DNA of 64,000 bases, from contig NZ_CP099582.1 of assembly GCF_024022995.1 (NCBI RefSeq), positions 1,240,001 to 1,304,000 on the forward strand, written 5' to 3'. A program made the translations under genes and the position numbers. Every line of letters begins with the position of its first letter. Position 1 is the first letter of the stretch. Positions 1 through 9,487 of the stretch are shown here, one piece after another. The notes under the pieces are model-generated. The model was not told where the DNA came from. It saw nothing but the letters and a program-made list of their open reading frames with translations, and searched no databases. The stretch comes from Thermococcus aggregans. GTDB taxonomy: Archaea; Methanobacteriota_B; Thermococci; Thermococcales; Thermococcaceae.

Positions 1-2
1 AA

Positions 3-689
3 TTGGGGGTATTAGTTCCTTCCTCTAATATTACTATGGAGTATGAACTTTATAAGATGGCACCAGACGGAGTGTCGATTCATTTCTCGAGAATACCTCA
101 AACAGAAGATACAGAAGAGCAATTGGCAGCTATGATTGATTATGTTCCCCAAGCTGCCGAATTATTAGCTCATGCAAGAGTTGATGCGATAGCATTCGGT
201 TGTACTAGTGGTAGTTTCATAAAAGGAGTTGGATATGACAAACAAATTATAGAGAGCATACAACAAAACACTGGAATACCCGCAACTACTACAACAACTG
301 CTGTTTTAGAAGCCTTGGACTTAATGGGGTTGAAAAAAATCTCAGTTGGTGCACCATACACTGATCCGATAATGCAGAAATTAAAGAAACTACTGGAAGA
401 AAATGGATTCAAAATAACAAAAATAAAAGGCCTTGGTCTTCTCAAGGGTGAAGGAGACTTACCCATAGATGAAACGTATAAATTAGTCAGAGAAATTGAT
501 ACTCCTGAGTCCGATGGGATCTTTATAAGCTGTACGGATTTCAAAACTGTCGAAATTTTAGAATTGCTAGAAGAAGATCTCGGAAAACCTGTTGTTTCGA
601 GCAATCAAGCAACTATGTGGAAATTGTTGAGATTATCGGGGTTAAAGACCAAAATAAGAGGGTTTGGTGCATTATTACGAGAATTCTGA
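3..689 (+). CDS. Asp/Glu/hydantoin racemase superfamily, maleate isomerase/AMDase-like (5' truncated)
   Basis: The reading frame is open to the left window edge, so the true N-terminus is probably missing; the visible part is 228 residues. It opens with VLVPSSN, the conserved substrate-loop start of maleate isomerase and arylmalonate decarboxylase relatives. Two cysteines in the expected positions, in FGCTSGS (about residue 67) and ISCTDF (about 177), match the paired catalytic cysteines of this superfamily, and PVVSSNQATMW near the C-terminus is also family-typical. Members racemise amino acids or isomerise maleate using cofactor-free cysteine chemistry. It sits 46 bp before an aminotransferase and heads a glutamate-like catabolic cluster, so racemisation of an acidic amino acid or isomerisation of a C4/C5 diacid is an inference; the substrate is not shown by the sequence. 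Confidence 0.75.
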   Translation: MGVLVPSSNITMEYELYKMAPDGVSIHFSRIPQTEDTEEQLAAMIDYVPQAAELLAHARVDAIAFGCTSGSFIKGVGYDKQIIESIQQNTGIPATTTTTAVLEALDLMGLKKISVGAPYTDPIMQKLKKLLEENGFKITKIKGLGLLKGEGDLPIDETYKLVREIDTPESDGIFISCTDFKTVEILELLEEDLGKPVVSSNQATMWKLLRLSGLKTKIRGFGALLREF

Positions 690-735
690 GAAGATGTGGT
701 ATGTTTCATCAAATGGAAAAGATGGGGGGATAAAA

Positions 736-1947
736 ATGAATTATGAAAAATACTATTCGGAAAAAGTGAAAGGTATGAGGCCCTCAATAATTAGGGAATT
801 GTTAAAGAAGTATGTAGGAAAAAAAGGCCTTATCTCTCTAGCAGCTGGCAATCCTAGCCCAGAAACTTTTCCAACAAGGATAATCAAAAAACTTGCAGAT
901 GAGGTGCTTGAAAAGTATGGAAAGGATGCACTCCAGTATGGTCCTACGCCTGGTTATTCGGGACTTATAGAGCAGATAAAGAACTTCATAGAAGAAAGAT
1001 ACAAAATAGATTCCTCAAAAGTGGGCGTGTTGATAACGTCTGGTGCACAACAGGTGCTTGATTTAACTGGTATGACTTTTCTAAACCCAGGAGACGTTGT
1101 AATCATTGAAGCGCCCACATATGTAGCGGCTATTGATGCTTTTGCTCAGTATGGTCCTGAGTTTGTTCAAGTGCCAGTTGATGAGGAGGGGATGAGGGTT
1201 GATGTGCTTGAGGACAAGCTTAAGAAATTGAAAGCTGAAGGCAAAAACGTGAAATTCGTCTATACAATCCCAACATTTCAAAATCCTGGTGGAGTAACAA
1301 TGAGTGAGGAAAGGAGGAAGTACCTTCTTGAGCTTGCAAACAAATACGACTTTTTAATCATTGAAGATGATCCATACCACGAGCTTAACTATTCGGATAA
1401 AGAACCTCCGCTGCCTATAAAGCACTGGGATTCAGAGGGGAGAGTTATCTACTCTGGAAGTTTCTCAAAAATCCTTGCACCTGGCTTTAGAGTCGGGTGG
1501 ATTGTGGCGGATCCGCAGATTATCAGAAAATTTGAGATTGTTAAGCAACGGCGTGATCTTCACACGAGTAGTTTTTGCCAGTACATCGCTGCAGAGTACA
1601 TAAAAGGAGGTTATCTTAGAGAGCATATTCCAAAGATTAGGGCATATTATAAACCAAAGTTAAAGGTAATGCTTGACGCTTTGGAAGAGTACATGCCGGA
1701 GGGATTTGAGTGGACTAAGCCGACAGGAGGCATGTTTGTTTGGGTAATGGGTCCAAGTGAATTGAATACAACTTCCATGCTAGAGAAGGCCGTGGAGAAT
1801 GGTGTAGTGTACGTTCCAGGTGAAGCGTTTTACCCAGACAGAAGTGTAAAGAACGCTATGAGAGTGGATTTCTCGTATCCAAGTGAAGAGGAGATTGTTG
1901 AGGGAATTAAAAGACTAGCAAAAACATGCAAAGAAGAGGGGGTGTGA
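736..1947 (+). CDS. PLP-dependent class I/II aminotransferase (2-aminoadipate aminotransferase-like)
   Basis: A fold-type I aminotransferase of 403 residues. The cofactor lysine lies in SGSFSKILAPGFRVGW, and the conserved TIPTFQNPGG and IIEDDPYHEL segments hold the Asn and Asp/Tyr that contact PLP. The sequence resembles the archaeal LysN/2-aminoadipate and aromatic aminotransferase group. The ATG at 736 is chosen because a G-rich ribosome binding site (724-730) precedes it; an upstream in-frame start would add 24 low-complexity residues. The next gene starts 4 bp after its stop, so it is cotranscribed with the 2-oxoacid oxidoreductase subunits. Its likely role is conversion of an amino acid, perhaps glutamate, to the 2-oxoacid oxidised by the following complex; the amino donor is inferred from context. 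Confidence 0.85.
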   Translation: MNYEKYYSEKVKGMRPSIIRELLKKYVGKKGLISLAAGNPSPETFPTRIIKKLADEVLEKYGKDALQYGPTPGYSGLIEQIKNFIEERYKIDSSKVGVLITSGAQQVLDLTGMTFLNPGDVVIIEAPTYVAAIDAFAQYGPEFVQVPVDEEGMRVDVLEDKLKKLKAEGKNVKFVYTIPTFQNPGGVTMSEERRKYLLELANKYDFLIIEDDPYHELNYSDKEPPLPIKHWDSEGRVIYSGSFSKILAPGFRVGWIVADPQIIRKFEIVKQRRDLHTSSFCQYIAAEYIKGGYLREHIPKIRAYYKPKLKVMLDALEEYMPEGFEWTKPTGGMFVWVMGPSELNTTSMLEKAVENGVVYVPGEAFYPDRSVKNAMRVDFSYPSEEEIVEGIKRLAKTCKEEGV

Positions 1948-1951
1948 CAAG

Positions 1952-3094
1952 TTGAAAGTAGAATTTATGCTTGGAAACCACGCTATTGTGGAGGGTGCTA
2001 TTGCTGCAGGTTGCAGATATTATGCAGCCTACCCCATAACACCCGTTAATGAGATAAGCATATATATGGCGGAAAAGATGCCTAAAGTAGGAGGCATATT
2101 TATTCAGTCTGAAGATGAACTCTTTTCCATCTTTTCTGTAATCGGAGCGTCCTTAGCTGGTATGAAGGCTATGACAGCCACAGCAAGTGCAGGATTTAAT
2201 TACATGCAAGAGGGACTTGGGTACGCTACTGCGGTTGAAGTCCCATTAGTGGTAGTAGACTCGATGAGAACTAGAGGAGAGAATTTCCCAACTCATGCTG
2301 ATATAATGCAAGTTAGATGGGGGCCAAGTGGAGACTACGAAGCAATAGCGTTTGCCCCATCGTCTCCTCAAGAATGCTTCGATTTTATGATTGAGGCGTT
2401 TAATACTGCAGAGAAGTACAGAACTCCCGTTATTATAATTCTCGAAGCCTCTATCGGGCTCATGAGAGAAAAAGTAGTTATCCCAGATGAAGACGAGATA
2501 AAAAAGAAGATAGTCAATAGGAAAATAGCCAAGGTAAATGAAATTCCTCCGGAGGAGTTTTTGCCGTATAAAGGAGATGAAAAAGGAGTACCACTATTTC
2601 CAGTATTGGGAACTGGTTATAGGGTGATTAGGTCCTTAAACCCGCATGATGAAAGAGGATACATTAATTGGAGTCCAGATGTGTTTGAAAGGATGTATAA
2701 CAGGATAATTGGGAAAATAAGAAACAACATAGATGACATAGTAAAATATCGGGAGTTTTATTTGGACGATGCAGATATAGCCGTAGTGGCTTATGGAAGC
2801 ACTGCAAGGGTTGCATTAGGCGCAGTGAAAAAACTCAGAGAAGATGGGGTTAAAGTTGGCTTGCTTAAGTTAGATACGGTGTTTCCAGTACCCGAACAAG
2901 AACTAAAAAAAGTTGCCGAAAGTGTCAAAGGTATTTTAGTTCCTGAACTTAACGTTGGGAAATACGTTCTCGAAGTGGAAAGAGTTGCCGGATGCATAAC
3001 AAAAGTTGAGTCATTGCCCAAGAATAGAGGGGAACAATTCACTTTGAATGAAATTGTTTCTGGAATAAAAAATCTATACCAGGAGGTGTGTTAA
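1952..3094 (+). CDS. korA: 2-oxoacid:ferredoxin oxidoreductase, alpha subunit (KorA type)
   Basis: A 380-residue alpha subunit of a TPP-dependent 2-oxoacid:ferredoxin oxidoreductase. The N-terminus GNHAIVEGAIAAGCRYYAAY with YPITPVNEI is the hallmark of the pyrimidine-binding domain, followed by the transketolase-C-like region (VAVVAYGSTARVA) near residue 280. The separate alpha/beta/gamma organisation matches the four-subunit 2-oxoglutarate/2-oxoisovalerate class. The start is a TTG at 1952 with a purine-rich site about 10 bp upstream. It couples CoA-dependent oxidative decarboxylation of a 2-oxoacid to ferredoxin reduction in the cytoplasm. With SucCD-like genes just downstream, 2-oxoglutarate is the favoured substrate, but isovalerate-type acids are not excluded. 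Confidence 0.88.
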   Translation: MKVEFMLGNHAIVEGAIAAGCRYYAAYPITPVNEISIYMAEKMPKVGGIFIQSEDELFSIFSVIGASLAGMKAMTATASAGFNYMQEGLGYATAVEVPLVVVDSMRTRGENFPTHADIMQVRWGPSGDYEAIAFAPSSPQECFDFMIEAFNTAEKYRTPVIIILEASIGLMREKVVIPDEDEIKKKIVNRKIAKVNEIPPEEFLPYKGDEKGVPLFPVLGTGYRVIRSLNPHDERGYINWSPDVFERMYNRIIGKIRNNIDDIVKYREFYLDDADIAVVAYGSTARVALGAVKKLREDGVKVGLLKLDTVFPVPEQELKKVAESVKGILVPELNVGKYVLEVERVAGCITKVESLPKNRGEQFTLNEIVSGIKNLYQEVC

Positions 3095-3095
3095 T

Positions 3096-3938
3096 ATGGA
3101 GGCTATAAAACATCCAAGATTAAAATATCTTCGAGAAGATTTATTACCACATACTTTTTGCCCTGGTTGTGGAATCGGGCAACTTATGAATTACCTAGCA
3201 AAGGCCTTAGATGATCTTTCGGCAGAAGGAAAAATCGATTTAGATAAAGTTGTGATGGTAACAGGAGTTGGATGTGCAGCAAGGCTTCCAATCTTTATGA
3301 ACTTTGAATGTATCCACGGCATACATGGACGTGAGTTAGCGTATGCAAGTGGAATAAAGCTAGCCAATCCTAAACTCCACGTAATAGCTGTTTTAGGAGA
3401 TGGAGCCGCTGCTAATATAGGTGGTAATCATTTCATACAAGCATGCAGGAGAAACATAGGAGTAACTACAATAGTAATAAACAACAGAATTTTTGCAATG
3501 ACTGGAGGCGAAGTAGCAGCAACTACACCTAAGGGTGTTGTTACATCCACTTCTCCCTATGGAAATATTGAGCGTCCATTCGATCTTTGTAAGCTTGCTG
3601 ACGCTGCTGGAGCATCCTTCATAGCAAGATGGACTACAGCTCATCCATTTCAACTAATAAACACGTTAAAAAAGGCCATAACTCATAAAGGATTCTCTCT
3701 TGTCGAGGTTATTTCCCAATGTGTAACATATTATGGAAGGAGGGTATATGGGGTGGACGATCCCGCAGTTTTATGGAAGAAGCTTAAGGAAGAAAGTGTC
3801 CCCATAGAACAAGCAAGAGAGATAAGTCCAGAAGACCTTGAGAAAAAGATAATTGTAGGTGAGTTTAAGGCCGAAGTGAGACCCACATTTGAAGAGGAAT
3901 ATTACAATATGTTGAAAAAAATAACGGGAGGAAGGTGA
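3096..3938 (+). CDS. korB: 2-oxoacid:ferredoxin oxidoreductase, beta subunit (KorB type)
   Basis: The TPP-binding beta subunit, 280 residues. HTFCPGCGIGQ near the N-terminus and GDGAAANIGGNHF with INNRIFAMTGG form the TPP/Mg2+-binding region seen in KorB and PorB proteins. The start codon ATG lies just after an aggaggtg site (3081-3088) that overlaps the end of the alpha gene, so translation is coupled. The stop overlaps the GTG start of the gamma subunit. It is the catalytic half-partner of the alpha subunit. The length and CPGCG motif are typical of the KorB group rather than a fused pyruvate enzyme. Confidence 0.9.
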   Translation: MEAIKHPRLKYLREDLLPHTFCPGCGIGQLMNYLAKALDDLSAEGKIDLDKVVMVTGVGCAARLPIFMNFECIHGIHGRELAYASGIKLANPKLHVIAVLGDGAAANIGGNHFIQACRRNIGVTTIVINNRIFAMTGGEVAATTPKGVVTSTSPYGNIERPFDLCKLADAAGASFIARWTTAHPFQLINTLKKAITHKGFSLVEVISQCVTYYGRRVYGVDDPAVLWKKLKEESVPIEQAREISPEDLEKKIIVGEFKAEVRPTFEEEYYNMLKKITGGR

Positions 3939-4495
3939 AGAAATTGCCGGAGTGGAATATTCGATTTTTGGGCATAGGGGGTCAAGGTATTGTTTTATCA
4001 TCAGTTATATTAGCTCATGCTGCAGTGTTAGATGGAGTTAATGCCACTCAAACACAAAGATATGGCTCAGAAGTACGAGGAGGAGAAGTTTATGCAGATG
4101 TCAAAATTTCCGATGGAGACATCTATTCTCCTATTATAGACGAAGTGGACTACATGATCGCGTTTGCGTATAGTACTTTGTCAAAATATATAAATACAAT
4201 CAAGGATGACGGGACTCTTTTTATAGATCCAGATCTCGTCCAAAACATTCCTCCCACAACAAAACGTATTGGAACTGTTTACAAGATTCCAGCAGCTCGT
4301 ATTGCTACTGAATTAGGTAATAACAGGGTAGCTAATACTGTTATGCTAGGAGCTATGAGAGCTATTACAAACATTGTTACTGAAGAAAGCCTTCTCAAGT
4401 CTCTGGAAATGCATGTGCCGAAGAAATACCTCGAGATTAACAAGAAAGCGTACTACGCCGGCAAAAACTTTGTTTTAAGTAGTGAGGAGAAATAA
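3935..4495 (+). CDS. korC: 2-oxoacid:ferredoxin oxidoreductase, gamma subunit
   Basis: A 186-residue gamma subunit. FLGIGGQGIVLSS at the N-terminus and TQTQRYGSEVRGGE are the classic motifs of the POR_gamma/KorC domain, which helps bind CoA and completes the oxidoreductase. The GTG start overlaps the previous TGA by four bases, with gggaggaag upstream as ribosome binding site. The cluster then switches to the acyl-CoA synthetase genes before the ferredoxin subunit appears at 6594, an unusual split of a normally contiguous delta-alpha-beta-gamma operon. The assignment to the family is secure; substrate preference is not readable from this subunit. Confidence 0.88.
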   Translation: MKKLPEWNIRFLGIGGQGIVLSSVILAHAAVLDGVNATQTQRYGSEVRGGEVYADVKISDGDIYSPIIDEVDYMIAFAYSTLSKYINTIKDDGTLFIDPDLVQNIPPTTKRIGTVYKIPAARIATELGNNRVANTVMLGAMRAITNIVTEESLLKSLEMHVPKKYLEINKKAYYAGKNFVLSSEEK

Positions 4496-4518
4496 ACAAA
4501 GCTAAGGAGGTATTAACA

Positions 4519-5682
4519 ATGAAACTCTTCGAATTCCAAGCAAAAGAAATATTTAGGAAGTATAATATACCAACAAGTACTTCCAGTTACTTAATTAAAA
4601 ATGCTGAAGAGGTCAATGCAATCTTGGATAAACTACAACTACCTTGTGTTCTCAAAGCCCAAGTTCTTAGTGGTGGAAGAGGAAAAGCAGGAGGTGTCAA
4701 AATAGCAAAAACTAAAGAAGAAATTTCTAAACTAGTAGAACAGATTTTTAATTTAGTGATCAATGGAGAAAAAACTTGCGCAATTCTAATAGAAGATTAT
4801 GTCAATATCGAGAAAGAGCTTTATACTAGTATAACTATAGACACCACAACTAACAACGTTACGATACTTGCTTCTTCTCTTGGTGGCATCGATATTGAAG
4901 AACTAACCCTTAAGCATCCTGAAATGATCTTTAAAATGAATGTAGATCCGTTTGTTGGGATAAAGACATACCAAGCAAGGCTTCTTGCAAGAAAACTTGG
5001 ACTCTCAGGAAGACTAGTTAATGTATATGCACATATTTTGACTTCTATGTATAGAATACTCAGAGACTATGATGCTGAACTCGTAGAAATAAATCCCTTA
5101 GCATTAACGAAATCAGGAGAATTAGTAGCTGTAGACGCTAAAATAGTGCTGAATGAACCTGCCAAATATAGACACCAAGAAACTTTTGAACAGTTAGAGA
5201 AAGAGCAAGAAGCTCTTGGTATTACCAGAAATCTAAAAGAAATCAAGCTAAAAGAGCTAGGGTGCTCTGCATATATTGATTTTGAAAAAGAGGGAATCGC
5301 ACTTATATCTGATGGGGCAGGTATTGGAATGTATGCATATGATACAATTTGTCAATTAGGTGGTTCAGTTGCTAGTTATTGTGAACTTGGATTGGCTAAT
5401 ACTCCCGAAAAGATAAGCCGAGTACTGGAGATAGTTTCAAGTGATCCAAAAACTAGAGTACTTCTAATAAACTGGTTTGGTGGGGCTAATATAATGGATG
5501 AAATGTGTAAAGGCATAATACAATTCAGAGAAAAAAACAATAGCATTCCAATTATAGTGAGAGTAGCTGGAACTAACTTTGACAAAGCACACGAGATGTT
5601 AAAAAATGCGAATATTTTTGTCACAGAAGATATTAACGAAGCTGTAAATAAAGTTATATCTTTCTCGGGAGGGATAAGCTAA
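4519..5682 (+). CDS. sucC: Succinyl-CoA synthetase beta-like ATP-grasp subunit (ADP-forming)
   Basis: Encodes 387 residues, almost exactly the length of bacterial SucC. MKLFEFQAKEIF, the basic SGGRGKAGGVK nucleotide loop, VEINPLALTKSGELVAVDAK and the C-terminal SGGA-type flavodoxin-like domain are all visible. This is the classic SucC layout, not the short ATP-grasp beta subunit of thermococcal ADP-forming acyl-CoA synthetases such as the one at 28861. With SucD it would convert an acyl-CoA, ADP and phosphate to the acid, CoA and ATP. Given the preceding oxidoreductase, succinyl-CoA is the likely substrate; malate-CoA ligase is a related alternative. An aaggagg site lies before the ATG. Confidence 0.85.
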   Translation: MKLFEFQAKEIFRKYNIPTSTSSYLIKNAEEVNAILDKLQLPCVLKAQVLSGGRGKAGGVKIAKTKEEISKLVEQIFNLVINGEKTCAILIEDYVNIEKELYTSITIDTTTNNVTILASSLGGIDIEELTLKHPEMIFKMNVDPFVGIKTYQARLLARKLGLSGRLVNVYAHILTSMYRILRDYDAELVEINPLALTKSGELVAVDAKIVLNEPAKYRHQETFEQLEKEQEALGITRNLKEIKLKELGCSAYIDFEKEGIALISDGAGIGMYAYDTICQLGGSVASYCELGLANTPEKISRVLEIVSSDPKTRVLLINWFGGANIMDEMCKGIIQFREKNNSIPIIVRVAGTNFDKAHEMLKNANIFVTEDINEAVNKVISFSGGIS

Positions 5683-6581
5683 TGGTAATTGAAATAAATA
5701 ATGTTAAATTAGACAGAAATGCTAGAGTAATAGTTCAAGGAATAACTGGTAGAATTGGCTCGTTTCAGAGTAAATTAATGATTGATTATGGTACCAACAT
5801 AGTTGCAGGTGTAACTCCCGGCAAAGGAGGAATGGAAATTCATGGAGTCCCAGTATATGATACAATCTTTGAAGCTAAAGAAGAAAAAGGACCTTTTGAT
5901 GTAGCAGTAGCCTTTGTACCACCTGGTAGTGCCTTGGATAGTTGTATTGAAGCAATTGATGGTGGTGTTAAACTTATTGTGCTTCCAACTGCGGATGTTC
6001 CTTATCTTGATTCAATAAAAATAATACACTATGCTAGCGAGAAAGACGCAAAAATAGTAGGGCCTGAGGCAGCGGGAATTCTCATACCCCATGAGTGCAA
6101 ACTGGGAGTTCATCCTGTACTTCCTGACAAATACTTTACTAAGGGTCCAGTTGGCATTGTGTCTAGAAGTGGTTCTCTCTCATATGACATGTCCAAAGCT
6201 CTCTCTGGGGCGGGGATAGGTCAATCTGCCATAGTATGTATAGGGGGCGGACCAATATGGGGAACTTCAATGATAGACGTGATTGAATCATTAGAACGAG
6301 ACAAGGATACAGAAGTAATATTAATGCTTGGTGAGATAGGGGGTACTATCGAAGAAGAAGCTGCTGAATATGTTAAACAAAATGTATCAAAGCCTGTTAT
6401 AGCTTTAATAGTGGGTCGGTGTGCTCCACCAGGAAAAAGTATGGGACATGCGGCAGCAATTATAATGAAAGGAAGAGGTACGTGGGACACTAAAGTACAA
6501 TTCTTGAGAAATTCTGGCATATATGTTGCCAAAACCTTTGAGGAAGTTATAGAAAATGTTAAAAAATATCTAAAAAGGTAA
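5682..6581 (+). CDS. sucD: Succinyl-CoA synthetase alpha-like subunit
   Basis: The 299-residue partner of the preceding gene; its ATG overlaps the upstream TAA. VIVQGITGRIGSFQS is the CoA-binding start, GPEAAGILIPHECK and VGIVSRSGSLSYDM follow, and APPGKSMGHAAAI carries the phosphorylated histidine at residue 256. Size and motif order match SucD. It binds CoA and relays phosphate between succinyl phosphate and the nucleotide-binding beta subunit. Together with the oxidoreductase it would give substrate-level phosphorylation. A SucC/SucD-type pair beside a Kor operon is not the standard thermococcal arrangement, so lateral acquisition is plausible but unproven. Confidence 0.86.
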   Translation: MVIEINNVKLDRNARVIVQGITGRIGSFQSKLMIDYGTNIVAGVTPGKGGMEIHGVPVYDTIFEAKEEKGPFDVAVAFVPPGSALDSCIEAIDGGVKLIVLPTADVPYLDSIKIIHYASEKDAKIVGPEAAGILIPHECKLGVHPVLPDKYFTKGPVGIVSRSGSLSYDMSKALSGAGIGQSAIVCIGGGPIWGTSMIDVIESLERDKDTEVILMLGEIGGTIEEEAAEYVKQNVSKPVIALIVGRCAPPGKSMGHAAAIIMKGRGTWDTKVQFLRNSGIYVAKTFEEVIENVKKYLKR

Positions 6582-6593
6582 GGAGGTGTCGTG

Positions 6594-6809
6594 ATGAAGT
6601 ATCCTGTTATTAATGAAAACCTGTGTAAAGGATGTGGTATATGTGTCGAGGTATGTCCAAAACAAGTGCTCATAATATCTCCAACTAAGATTAATACAAA
6701 AGGCCTAAATATTGCAGAAGTACAAGCTCCTGAAAAGTGCATAGGTTGCAAGTTATGTGAAATAGTATGTCCCGATTTTGCAATAACAATTGTTGAAGAA
6801 GGGGGCTAA
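6594..6809 (+). CDS. korD: 2x[4Fe-4S] ferredoxin subunit of the 2-oxoacid oxidoreductase (KorD type)
   Basis: A 71-residue ferredoxin-like protein with two CxxCxxCxxxCP clusters: CKGCGICVEVCP and CIGCKLCEIVCP. This is the delta subunit that carries electrons from the TPP site to ferredoxin. ATG at 6594 is preferred over the GTG at 6591 because the aggaggtg site (6581-6588) is then spaced normally. It is separated from the other three subunit genes by sucCD, yet it is the only small ferredoxin in the cluster and most probably completes the complex. A role as free electron carrier is possible. Confidence 0.85.
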   Translation: MKYPVINENLCKGCGICVEVCPKQVLIISPTKINTKGLNIAEVQAPEKCIGCKLCEIVCPDFAITIVEEGG

Positions 6810-6814
6810 ATATC

Positions 6815-7846
6815 ATGGCATCTTATGAGACACTAGGTAAATGGTTGGACACACTTGTAAATATCGATATACTTGGGAGAGGTATAATAGACAAACTATA
6901 TACTGGAGCATATGAGAAAATTGGTGAGCCTTTAATCTATAGAGCAGCAAGAGAAATCAAAGAAGCTGTGGGTAAAAATGATGCAGTTTTGATAATGACA
7001 GGCTTCAGAACACCCCCGTTGTATGTTCAGGAAACAGATGGTCCCTTAGGAGCTGCATCACTTGCCAGAACCATTGACATATGTCTGGGTGGCAAGCCAA
7101 TACTCATAACAGAGCCGGTAGATGCCTCATTAAGGATCTTAAAAGCTGCAGTTAGAGGAGTTGGACTAAGTGTCATGCCTATTGAAGAAATCTGTAAGGA
7201 GTCGTATAAGCATTCTGCTTCAATTGTAGGATTTCCGATAGATGAAGAAAAAGCAAAAGAGGATGCAAAAAGACTTTTGGATGAACTAAACCCCAGGGCA
7301 GTAATAGCTATTGAAAAAGCAGGTCGTAACTCCAAGAATGTGTACCATAATCAGAGTGGATTGGACATTAGTAAATATCATGCCAAGGTTGAACATATAA
7401 TCACTGAAGCTCAAAAAAGAGACATTTTAACTATAGGCATTGGGGATGGAGGTAACGAAGTAGGTATGGGAGTAATAGAGGATGTAGTAAGAAAGCATGT
7501 TCCCTATGGGGATGTGTGCCAGTGCCCTTGTAAGGGAGGAATAGCTGCAACTTCTAAAGTTGATGTGTTGGTGACAGCAGCCATTTCCAATTGGGGTGGC
7601 TATGCTCTTAGTGGCATGTTAGCTAGGATGTGCAATAAACCAGAGGGGTTACATACTCAAGAAAATGAAGATCTAATGTTTACTTTAGTCATAAGCGAAG
7701 GAGCCATTGACGGAGATAAGGGTATTGTTGAAAGATCGGCTGATAACGTAGAACTTGGCATACATAAGTCTGTTTTAGCACTAATCCGCCAGATATTGTT
7801 TCATCGCCCACATCCAGTTATTAGGGGGGAGATAATAAGTGTTTAA
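6815..7846 (+). CDS. Stand-alone D-glutamate cyclase C-terminal domain protein (DUF4392 family)
   Basis: 343 residues that I recognise as the DUF4392 / D-glutamate cyclase C-terminal family. Signature segments are MTGFRTPPLYVQETDGPLG (about 61-80) followed by AASLAR, and IGIGDGGNEVGMG (about 210), a conserved glycine/acid-rich motif. In vertebrate DGLUCY this domain accompanies conversion of D-glutamate to 5-oxo-D-proline; in many bacteria it is fused to a DUF1445 domain, absent here. It follows the ferredoxin gene by 5 bp and ends the cluster. Its presence beside a racemase-like gene and a glutamate-type oxidation pathway suggests handling of D-glutamate or 5-oxoproline. The activity of the lone domain is inference. 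Confidence 0.72.
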   Translation: MASYETLGKWLDTLVNIDILGRGIIDKLYTGAYEKIGEPLIYRAAREIKEAVGKNDAVLIMTGFRTPPLYVQETDGPLGAASLARTIDICLGGKPILITEPVDASLRILKAAVRGVGLSVMPIEEICKESYKHSASIVGFPIDEEKAKEDAKRLLDELNPRAVIAIEKAGRNSKNVYHNQSGLDISKYHAKVEHIITEAQKRDILTIGIGDGGNEVGMGVIEDVVRKHVPYGDVCQCPCKGGIAATSKVDVLVTAAISNWGGYALSGMLARMCNKPEGLHTQENEDLMFTLVISEGAIDGDKGIVERSADNVELGIHKSVLALIRQILFHRPHPVIRGEIISV

Positions 7847-9194: not shown

Positions 9195-9359
9195 ATGAAA
9201 ACTGAAAAACTCATTGGGATTTTGGGTGGAATGGGTCCGCTTGCAACAGTAGATTTATTCAAGAGGATAGTCCTCAAGACCCCAGCAAAAAGGGACCAAG
9301 ACCATCCAAGGATAATCATCTACAACAACCCGAAAATCCCTGACAGAACTGCTTACATC
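9195..9359 (+). pseudogene. Truncated aspartate racemase
   Basis: Begins as a normal aspartate racemase (IGILGGMGPLATVDLFKRI, then [17 protein letters not shown]), preceded by a good aaggggg site. After about 55 residues the similarity stops abruptly at 9357-9360. The frame continues to 9446, but that part is the antisense of a different gene, the ABC ATPase stump at 9353-9487. More than three quarters of the enzyme, including the second catalytic cysteine region, is missing, so it cannot be functional. A full-length racemase would be about 230 residues. The break is shared with the opposing gene, which points to one deletion. Confidence 0.85.
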
Positions 9360-9487
9360 TCACCGGCAAGTCCTAGGACTTCTCCCTTTTTTAAATCGAA
9401 GCTTATGTCATCAACAGCCCTCACAACACCCCTATTGGTGAAGTAATACATCTTAAGATTGCGAACCTCAAGCACATTCCCAGCCAT
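9353..9487 (-). pseudogene. dppD: 5' stump of peptide ABC transporter ATP-binding protein (DppD/OppD-like)
   Basis: On the minus strand an aggtga site precedes ATG at 9487 and a 44-codon ORF. It reads [39 protein letters not shown]: the start of a dipeptide/oligopeptide ABC ATPase, ending where the Walker A motif (GESGSGKST) should begin. The homology stops at about 9359, exactly where the converging aspartate racemase fragment stops. It lies directly downstream of the amidohydrolase of the peptide transporter operon, the expected place for dppD. No dppF follows. The stump cannot bind ATP. Confidence 0.85.

Follow-up and report, generated by a model that had tools for sequence, protein, structure and literature searches.

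A putative operon joining a D-glutamate cyclase-like protein to 2-oxoacid oxidation in Thermococcus aggregans, and its possible role in 5-oxoproline catabolism

The window analysed here is a 64,000-nucleotide stretch of Thermococcus aggregans (G000:C1:1240001-1304000), G000 being a Thermococcaceae genome of 1,889,107 bp on a single contig that is 99.67% complete. The left edge of the window cuts through a ten-gene operon on the + strand, most of which lies inside. In order, the operon encodes a PutP-type symporter, a protein of the arylmalonate decarboxylase (AMDase)/racemase family, a class-I aminotransferase, the KorA, KorB and KorC subunits of a 2-oxoacid:ferredoxin oxidoreductase (KOR), SucC, SucD, an OorD-like ferredoxin, and a DUF4392 protein of the D-glutamate cyclase-like family, hereafter GLUCM (Table 1). 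From symporter to GLUCM the intergenic gaps were 34, 49, 4, 1, -4, 23, -1, 9 and 5 bp, with a maximum of 49 bp; because these were so small, the genes were interpreted as one tight unit. Downstream of GLUCM, the next gene began only after 127 bp.

An earlier note on the window had proposed this cluster as a candidate for the fermentation of (D-)glutamate or 5-oxoproline to succinate. The gene set, the order, the + strand, the tight spacing and the intact motifs that it listed were all confirmed, its first gene being cut by the window edge. That gene encodes 235 aa and starts at G000:1239982, 19 bp left of the edge, and therefore the TTG at position 3 is not the start of the racemase-like gene. 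KorB carried the GDG...N motif for thiamine pyrophosphate (TPP), the ferredoxin two CxxCxxCxxxCP motifs, SucD its GHA histidine region and the aminotransferase the SGSFSK motif around its pyridoxal phosphate (PLP) lysine; all of these were intact. All four parts of the KOR that the note had described were present, but the fourth, the ferredoxin, sits after SucD and away from KorABC. An alternative start codon is possible for the ferredoxin gene (ATG at 6594), and a membrane open reading frame (ORF) of 35 aa overlaps the start of the operon's symporter.

Table 1. Genes of the operon, in order. Positions refer to the window, except for the symporter, which is placed on locus L004; scores and cutoffs are in bits.
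Feature	Position	Strand	Evidence and remarks
PutP-type sodium symporter	L004:10445-11947		First operon gene, left of window; 34 bp before racemase-like gene
AMDase/Asp-Glu racemase-family protein, two-cysteine type	1..689	+	PF17645 130, PF01177 33; C74 and C184
Class-I aminotransferase	736..1947	+	PF00155 148; PDB matches 1x0m/3aov/1wst, E below 1e-150; PLP lysine motif
KorA, 2-oxoacid:ferredoxin oxidoreductase alpha	1952..3094	+	PRK08659 431.7, over cutoff 411
KorB, beta subunit (TPP)	3096..3938	+	Best NCBIfam 2-oxoglutarate ferredoxin oxidoreductase beta, 230.5, under cutoff 364
KorC, gamma subunit	3935..4495	+	PF01558; TIGR02175 89.6, cutoff 81.1
SucC-like succinate-CoA ligase beta	4519..5682	+	TIGR01016 324.9, cutoff 375.6; PDB SucC matches
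SucD-like succinate-CoA ligase alpha	5682..6581	+	TIGR01019 334.2, cutoff 353.2; GHA histidine region
2x[4Fe-4S] ferredoxin, KorD/OorD-like	6591..6809	+	Best NCBIfam OorD 65.9, cutoff 93; two cluster motifs
Long-type DUF4392/GLUCM (D-glutamate cyclase-like) protein, CxCPC motif	6815..7846	+	PF14336 265.6, cutoff 27.9, model positions 1-290 of 291

The central genes of the operon resembled the known combination of KorABCD (OorDABC) with SucCD, through which 2-oxoglutarate is converted to succinate and ATP; all subunits were present and were best matched to these families, while the operon differed in having the ferredoxin after SucD and SucCD of bacterial type. The alpha, beta, gamma and ferredoxin subunits of the KOR carried TPP and [4Fe-4S] motifs, and their best matches were 2-oxoglutarate or general 2-oxoacid oxidoreductases. 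However, the beta subunit, OorC (108.9 against 216) and OorD scored below the 2-oxoglutarate-specific equivalog cutoffs, and KorA cleared only a general 2-oxoacid model (PRK08659). The enzyme was therefore classed as a 2-oxoacid oxidoreductase, with 2-oxoglutarate as its putative substrate. SucC and SucD, whose best matches were succinate-CoA ligases, scored close to, but below, their curated cutoffs, and carried the ATP-grasp, CoA-binding and ligase domains (PF08442, PF02629, PF00549) and the phosphohistidine region. Thus, the note's reading of these genes as a 2-oxoglutarate-to-succinate module held by best family match, although most of the proteins fell under the curated equivalog cutoffs. 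Relatives of the aminotransferase include PH0207 of P. horikoshii and 1wst, termed a 'multiple substrate aminotransferase'. Class I aminotransferases generally act on L-amino acids.

The racemase-like protein retained both active-site cysteines of its family, C74 in GCTSGS and C184 in SCTD, and so shares its Pfam family and two-cysteine pattern with the isomerases and racemases of the maleate isomerase/arylmalonate decarboxylase/EutA group. Arylmalonate decarboxylase and EutA (ectoine) were rejected as names, since the protein scored far below both equivalog cutoffs (125 against 225 and 120.6 against 318, respectively). Maleate isomerase was also dropped as a name, though the protein may yet have that activity, because the genomic links of the protein's closest Thermococcales relatives point instead to 5-oxoproline genes. 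Those of highest identity (49-50%) were encoded immediately upstream of pxpA-pxpB-pxpC in two other genomes, G021 and G006, and the G021 locus also included an Nramp-type transporter. A firm clade uniting the window racemase with these pxp-linked paralogues was unsupported, as the window protein formed a long branch in the tree. A further racemase-like paralogue, in another Thermococcaceae genome (L133, G064:C206), stood beside an Nramp fragment and genes for HyuA-like, S-Me-THD (DUF917), putative permease and Asp/Glu racemase proteins, in what is a possible hydantoin or oxoproline locus.

The stand-alone DUF4392 protein that the note had recognized in the cluster was upheld by a full-length PF14336 match. 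A structure predicted for it (pLDDT, the per-residue confidence, 75.5; pTM, the predicted template modelling score, 0.84; from an alignment of only five sequences) found one strong match in the PDB, TON_0340 of Thermococcus onnurineus (PDB 4DWZ, 4FC5, 5GL2-5GL4, 5GKX), with a template modelling score of 0.80 by target length. The two proteins share a fold, and each of the six acidic residues that bind metal in TON_0340 is conserved: E73, D75, E167, D211, E215 and D310 in the window protein were paired in the same order with E59, D61, E115, D157, E161 and D246, the sixth being assigned by alignment column. Identity in the structural alignment was 26-27%, and the window protein differed in being longer (343 against 268 aa), in belonging to a putative catabolic operon and in having a CxCPC motif (residues 234-242, listed at window 7048-7534). 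This motif, possibly a metal or redox site, was present in most long-type proteins of archaea, Aerophobota and Chloroflexota, and was missing from the short TON_0340 type; the two types were about 29-41% identical over the matching stretch. G000 also carries a short GLUCM, at about G000:87,362-88,177. This type and an AMDase-like paralogue were each present in 74 of 74 good Thermococcaceae genomes, whereas the long-type copy was unique to G000; the operon therefore carries second copies of a pair that is universal in the family. With regard to function, TON_0340 was described as having a very low, unselective, Mn-dependent phosphatase activity (PMC5132392), while the mouse protein 9030617O03Rik, which combines DUF1445 with DUF4392, is a D-glutamate cyclase (PMC5339696). 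The window protein has the DUF4392 domain and the proposed chemistry in common with this mammalian enzyme (DGLUCY), but lacks DUF1445.

Part of the operon was evidently acquired. No homologue of SucC was found in the 93 other Thermococcaceae genomes searched, and the segment that bears it was therefore interpreted as foreign. A 5-kb contig (L042, scaffold name B47_Guay16), binned as Candidatus Aerophobetes, encoded KorA-KorB-KorC-SucC-SucD-GLUCM with 77-88% protein identity; between SucD and GLUCM was an interval of 240 bp in which no ORF of at least 70 aa was called, but which is long enough for a putative ferredoxin gene. This contig could be mis-binned, yet it is an independent copy of the core order, and as KorABC, SucCD and GLUCM recur on it in that order, the cluster goes beyond a chance assembly of genes. 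The GLUCM of Fervidicoccus was 64% identical to that of the window, and no such partner genes were seen on its contig or in a longer stretch from a near relative. A relative of the aminotransferase, 58% identical, occurred in a second member of the genus. Given this relative, and AMDase-like paralogues throughout the family, KorABC-SucCD-ferredoxin-GLUCM is the part whose foreign origin is clearest. A search for AMDase in the metagenome-assembled genomes behind L041-L044, which are incomplete and in which the query lacked a positive control, gave no match.

The genomic neighbourhoods of GLUCM genes were surveyed at 39 loci from Thermoproteota, Aerophobota, Chloroflexota and plasmid-borne proteobacterial loci; the counts are lower bounds, given a small reference set and the many loci that ran off contig ends. 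KOR-type, AMDase/racemase-family and aminotransferase genes were partners at three loci each, and PxpABC, ThrC-like and M24 genes at one each; a second GLUCM gene was nearby at seven. KOR genes adjoined GLUCM in one thermoproteotal locus (L083), and a racemase-family gene did so in two others (L084 and L046). On a Dehalococcoidales contig (L043), about 6 kb separated GLUCM from a DUF1445-PxpA-PxpB-PxpC block, where family names were read from the sequence and the Pxp genes were also identified by homology to confirmed Thermococcales copies. The exact gene set is rare, therefore, and partial links recur across phyla. Conservation of the neighbourhood, on which the earlier note had made its reading depend, was borne out in part: one further contig had the core KOR-SUC-GLUCM order and some loci repeated part of the links, but about half of the loci had no such partner. 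In bacteria, GLUCM paralogue pairs (L048, L050, L052, L053, L110, L111, L114) formed a recurrent, uncharacterised cluster, and several of these loci added genes for a SelA-like PLP enzyme, an aldehyde dehydrogenase and a hydroxyisobutyrate dehydrogenase-like protein.

Further links to 5-oxoproline came from the former pxp site of G000 itself. PxpABC is the ATP-dependent 5-oxoprolinase of prokaryotes, and the Nramp-type PxpT/YcsG, from a family that serves in 5-oxoproline uptake, is needed for 5-oxoproline use (PMC13274462); a high degree of conservation in Thermococci has been described for pxpABC (PMC9258230). No match to PxpA (PF03746) was found in G000, whereas 23 of 24 other Thermococcaceae sampled had it, the sole exception being a genome 78% complete. 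The site at which sister genomes carry pxpCBA was located in G000 via a flanking gene, and it held DUF969, DUF979 and pcp instead (L171 5779-9357; G000:1700778-1704356). Also present there were a remnant of the 3' end of pxpC (about 45 bp, 13 residues, EEVIAFTKVEKKR) and, in approximately 1.25 kb of non-coding DNA, a decayed fragment of an M24 peptidase. The pcp gene encodes pyroglutamyl peptidase. It was rejected as the replacement of pxpABC, since pcp and pxpABC coexist, within 6 kb, in a further Thermococcaceae genome (G009, L168). In B. subtilis, a role in the transport of pyroglutamate has been reported for DUF969 and DUF979 (PMC6904757). Hence, PxpA is lost from the one genome that carries the operon, and the genes at its former pxp site would release, and probably transport, 5-oxoproline. 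A connection of the operon with 5-oxoproline is supported by three independent results, namely the pxp-linked racemase paralogues, the L043 contig with GLUCM near PxpABC and DUF1445, and the loss of PxpA. The likeness to PxpABC operons thus consists of a racemase-like paralogue directly beside pxpABC in two Thermococcales and of GLUCM with DUF1445-PxpABC on one Dehalococcoidales contig, while the operon of the window has no Pxp gene, and PxpABC uses ATP where the route proposed below does not.

Starting from what is established here (the genes, their spacing, the acquisition of the SucC segment, the metal ligands, the cysteines, the genomic links to pxpABC and the absence of PxpA), the operon may be read as serving the catabolism of 5-oxoproline (pyroglutamate) and D-/L-glutamate to succinate with formation of ATP; a probability of roughly 0.45 was assigned to this reading. 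Uptake would be by the PutP-type symporter or by the DUF969/DUF979 transporter encoded at the old pxp site; alternatively, pyroglutamyl peptidase would release the substrate from peptides. Racemisation of 5-oxoproline (or glutamate) would fall to the two-cysteine AMDase-family enzyme, and the ATP-independent interconversion of 5-oxo-D-proline and D-glutamate to the Mn-type GLUCM; jointly they would connect 5-oxo-L-proline with L-glutamate. The aminotransferase, or the usual glutamate dehydrogenase, would then give 2-oxoglutarate, which KorABC and ferredoxin would oxidise to succinyl-CoA with reduced ferredoxin, and SucCD would convert succinyl-CoA to succinate with the formation of ATP. The note's case for glutamate or 5-oxoproline as substrate has thus gained genomic links (the pxp-side paralogues, L043, and the loss of PxpA with pcp-DUF979-DUF969), but the substrates, stereochemistry, net direction and order of the racemase and GLUCM steps are inferred. 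The operon combines enzymes of known kinds in a new way, and no description of such a thermococcal pathway was found in a literature search, from which subscription journals were largely out of reach.

Several points weigh against this reading. The activities of the operon's proteins are all predicted, and SucC, SucD and several KOR subunits fall under their equivalog cutoffs. Ring opening is uphill, with an equilibrium constant [Glu]/[5-OP] of about 0.035 (PMC13274462), from which a cost of about 8-9 kJ/mol was calculated for the ATP-free reaction; the oxidation that follows must therefore draw it forward. An aminotransferase of this family would be expected to be specific for L-amino acids, which makes a racemase step on either glutamate or 5-oxoproline necessary. 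In addition, the window racemase is not placed firmly within the pxp-linked clade, the loss of PxpA is a single event, and about half of the GLUCM loci elsewhere are without such partners. The cyclase activity of the mouse protein belongs to the whole DUF1445-DUF4392 protein and was not assigned to DUF4392 alone, and the closest structural relative was published as a phosphatase.

This last point, together with the shared fold and metal ligands, suggests that GLUCM could be an Mn-dependent phosphatase acting on a small phosphate ester, as TON_0340 was published to be (PMC5132392), with no cyclisation of glutamate and an operon that handles some other 2-oxoacid. That account was considered improbable, given the weakness and lack of selectivity of the reported activity, the cyclisation of D-glutamate by the related mouse protein, and an operon in which no kinase or phosphorylated intermediate is evident. 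A stronger competitor, though still an unlikely one, is a general operon for L-glutamate or peptide fermentation, in which the racemase-like enzyme and GLUCM would merely repair or salvage D-glutamate and damaged glutamate, and 5-oxoproline would be exported via DUF969/DUF979 rather than fermented. The aminotransferase, KOR and SucCD would already suffice to take glutamate to succinate, the equilibrium lies toward 5-oxoproline, and every good Thermococcaceae genome has a short GLUCM and an AMDase-like paralogue as housekeeping genes. However, second copies of GLUCM and the racemase within the operon would then be unexplained, as would their coincidence with the loss of PxpA. The favoured direction of glutamate cyclisation could also serve a biosynthetic operon running in reverse, since every step is reversible in principle: SucCD would activate succinate, KOR would carboxylate succinyl-CoA reductively to 2-oxoglutarate, the aminotransferase would form glutamate and GLUCM 5-oxoproline, for instance as a solute, 5-oxoproline having been mentioned as an osmoprotectant in some bacteria (PMC13274462). 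This was judged the least probable account, as an uptake-type symporter heads the operon, and the pyroglutamyl peptidase with DUF969/979 at the old pxp site suggests release and transport of 5-oxoproline.

If the operon is indeed catabolic, a more specific proposal can be made, that a dedicated racemase of 5-oxoproline (or glutamate) and an Mn-dependent GLUCM acting as ring-opening hydrolase, pulled by KOR and SucCD, replace the lost ATP-dependent 5-oxoprolinase, such that pyroglutamate gives net ATP. PxpABC would spend the one ATP made by SucCD, and thus 5-oxoproline would yield net substrate-level energy if its ring were opened without ATP. This proposal is doubtful, and is held more tentatively than the catabolic reading itself.

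Several features flank the operon. Further upstream (L004 3408-10084; G000:1231408-1238084) were an HTH_10 regulator, an M29-like protein related to the 2,5-dihydroxypyridine dioxygenase NicX, another PutP-type symporter and an M24/ThrC-like pair. Membership of this block in the same operon was rejected, gaps being mostly 248-441 bp; a gap of 363 bp precedes the second symporter, which is that of the operon, and M24-ThrC is a separate pair. M24 and ThrC-like genes also occurred near GLUCM in two Chloroflexota loci, and a functional link to the operon may exist. Within the window, at 9195-9446, a fragment of an aspartate racemase-like gene (83 aa) lies behind an intact gene resembling aspartate aminotransferase, and looks like a truncated remnant.

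5-Oxoproline arises spontaneously from glutamine and glutamate, and must be handled by peptide fermenters that live in hot environments; the widespread enzymes for its disposal, PxpABC and the eukaryotic type, cost ATP. The locus offers a concrete candidate for a route that spends no ATP and is tied to energy gain, and it proposes functions for prokaryotic DUF4392 proteins, for the AMDase-like proteins of Thermococcales and for the long CxCPC GLUCM proteins. It also bears on the DUF4392 domain of human DGLUCY, whose thermococcal relative is now labelled a phosphatase. If the ATP-free route is true, pyroglutamate would give net ATP in a hyperthermophile.

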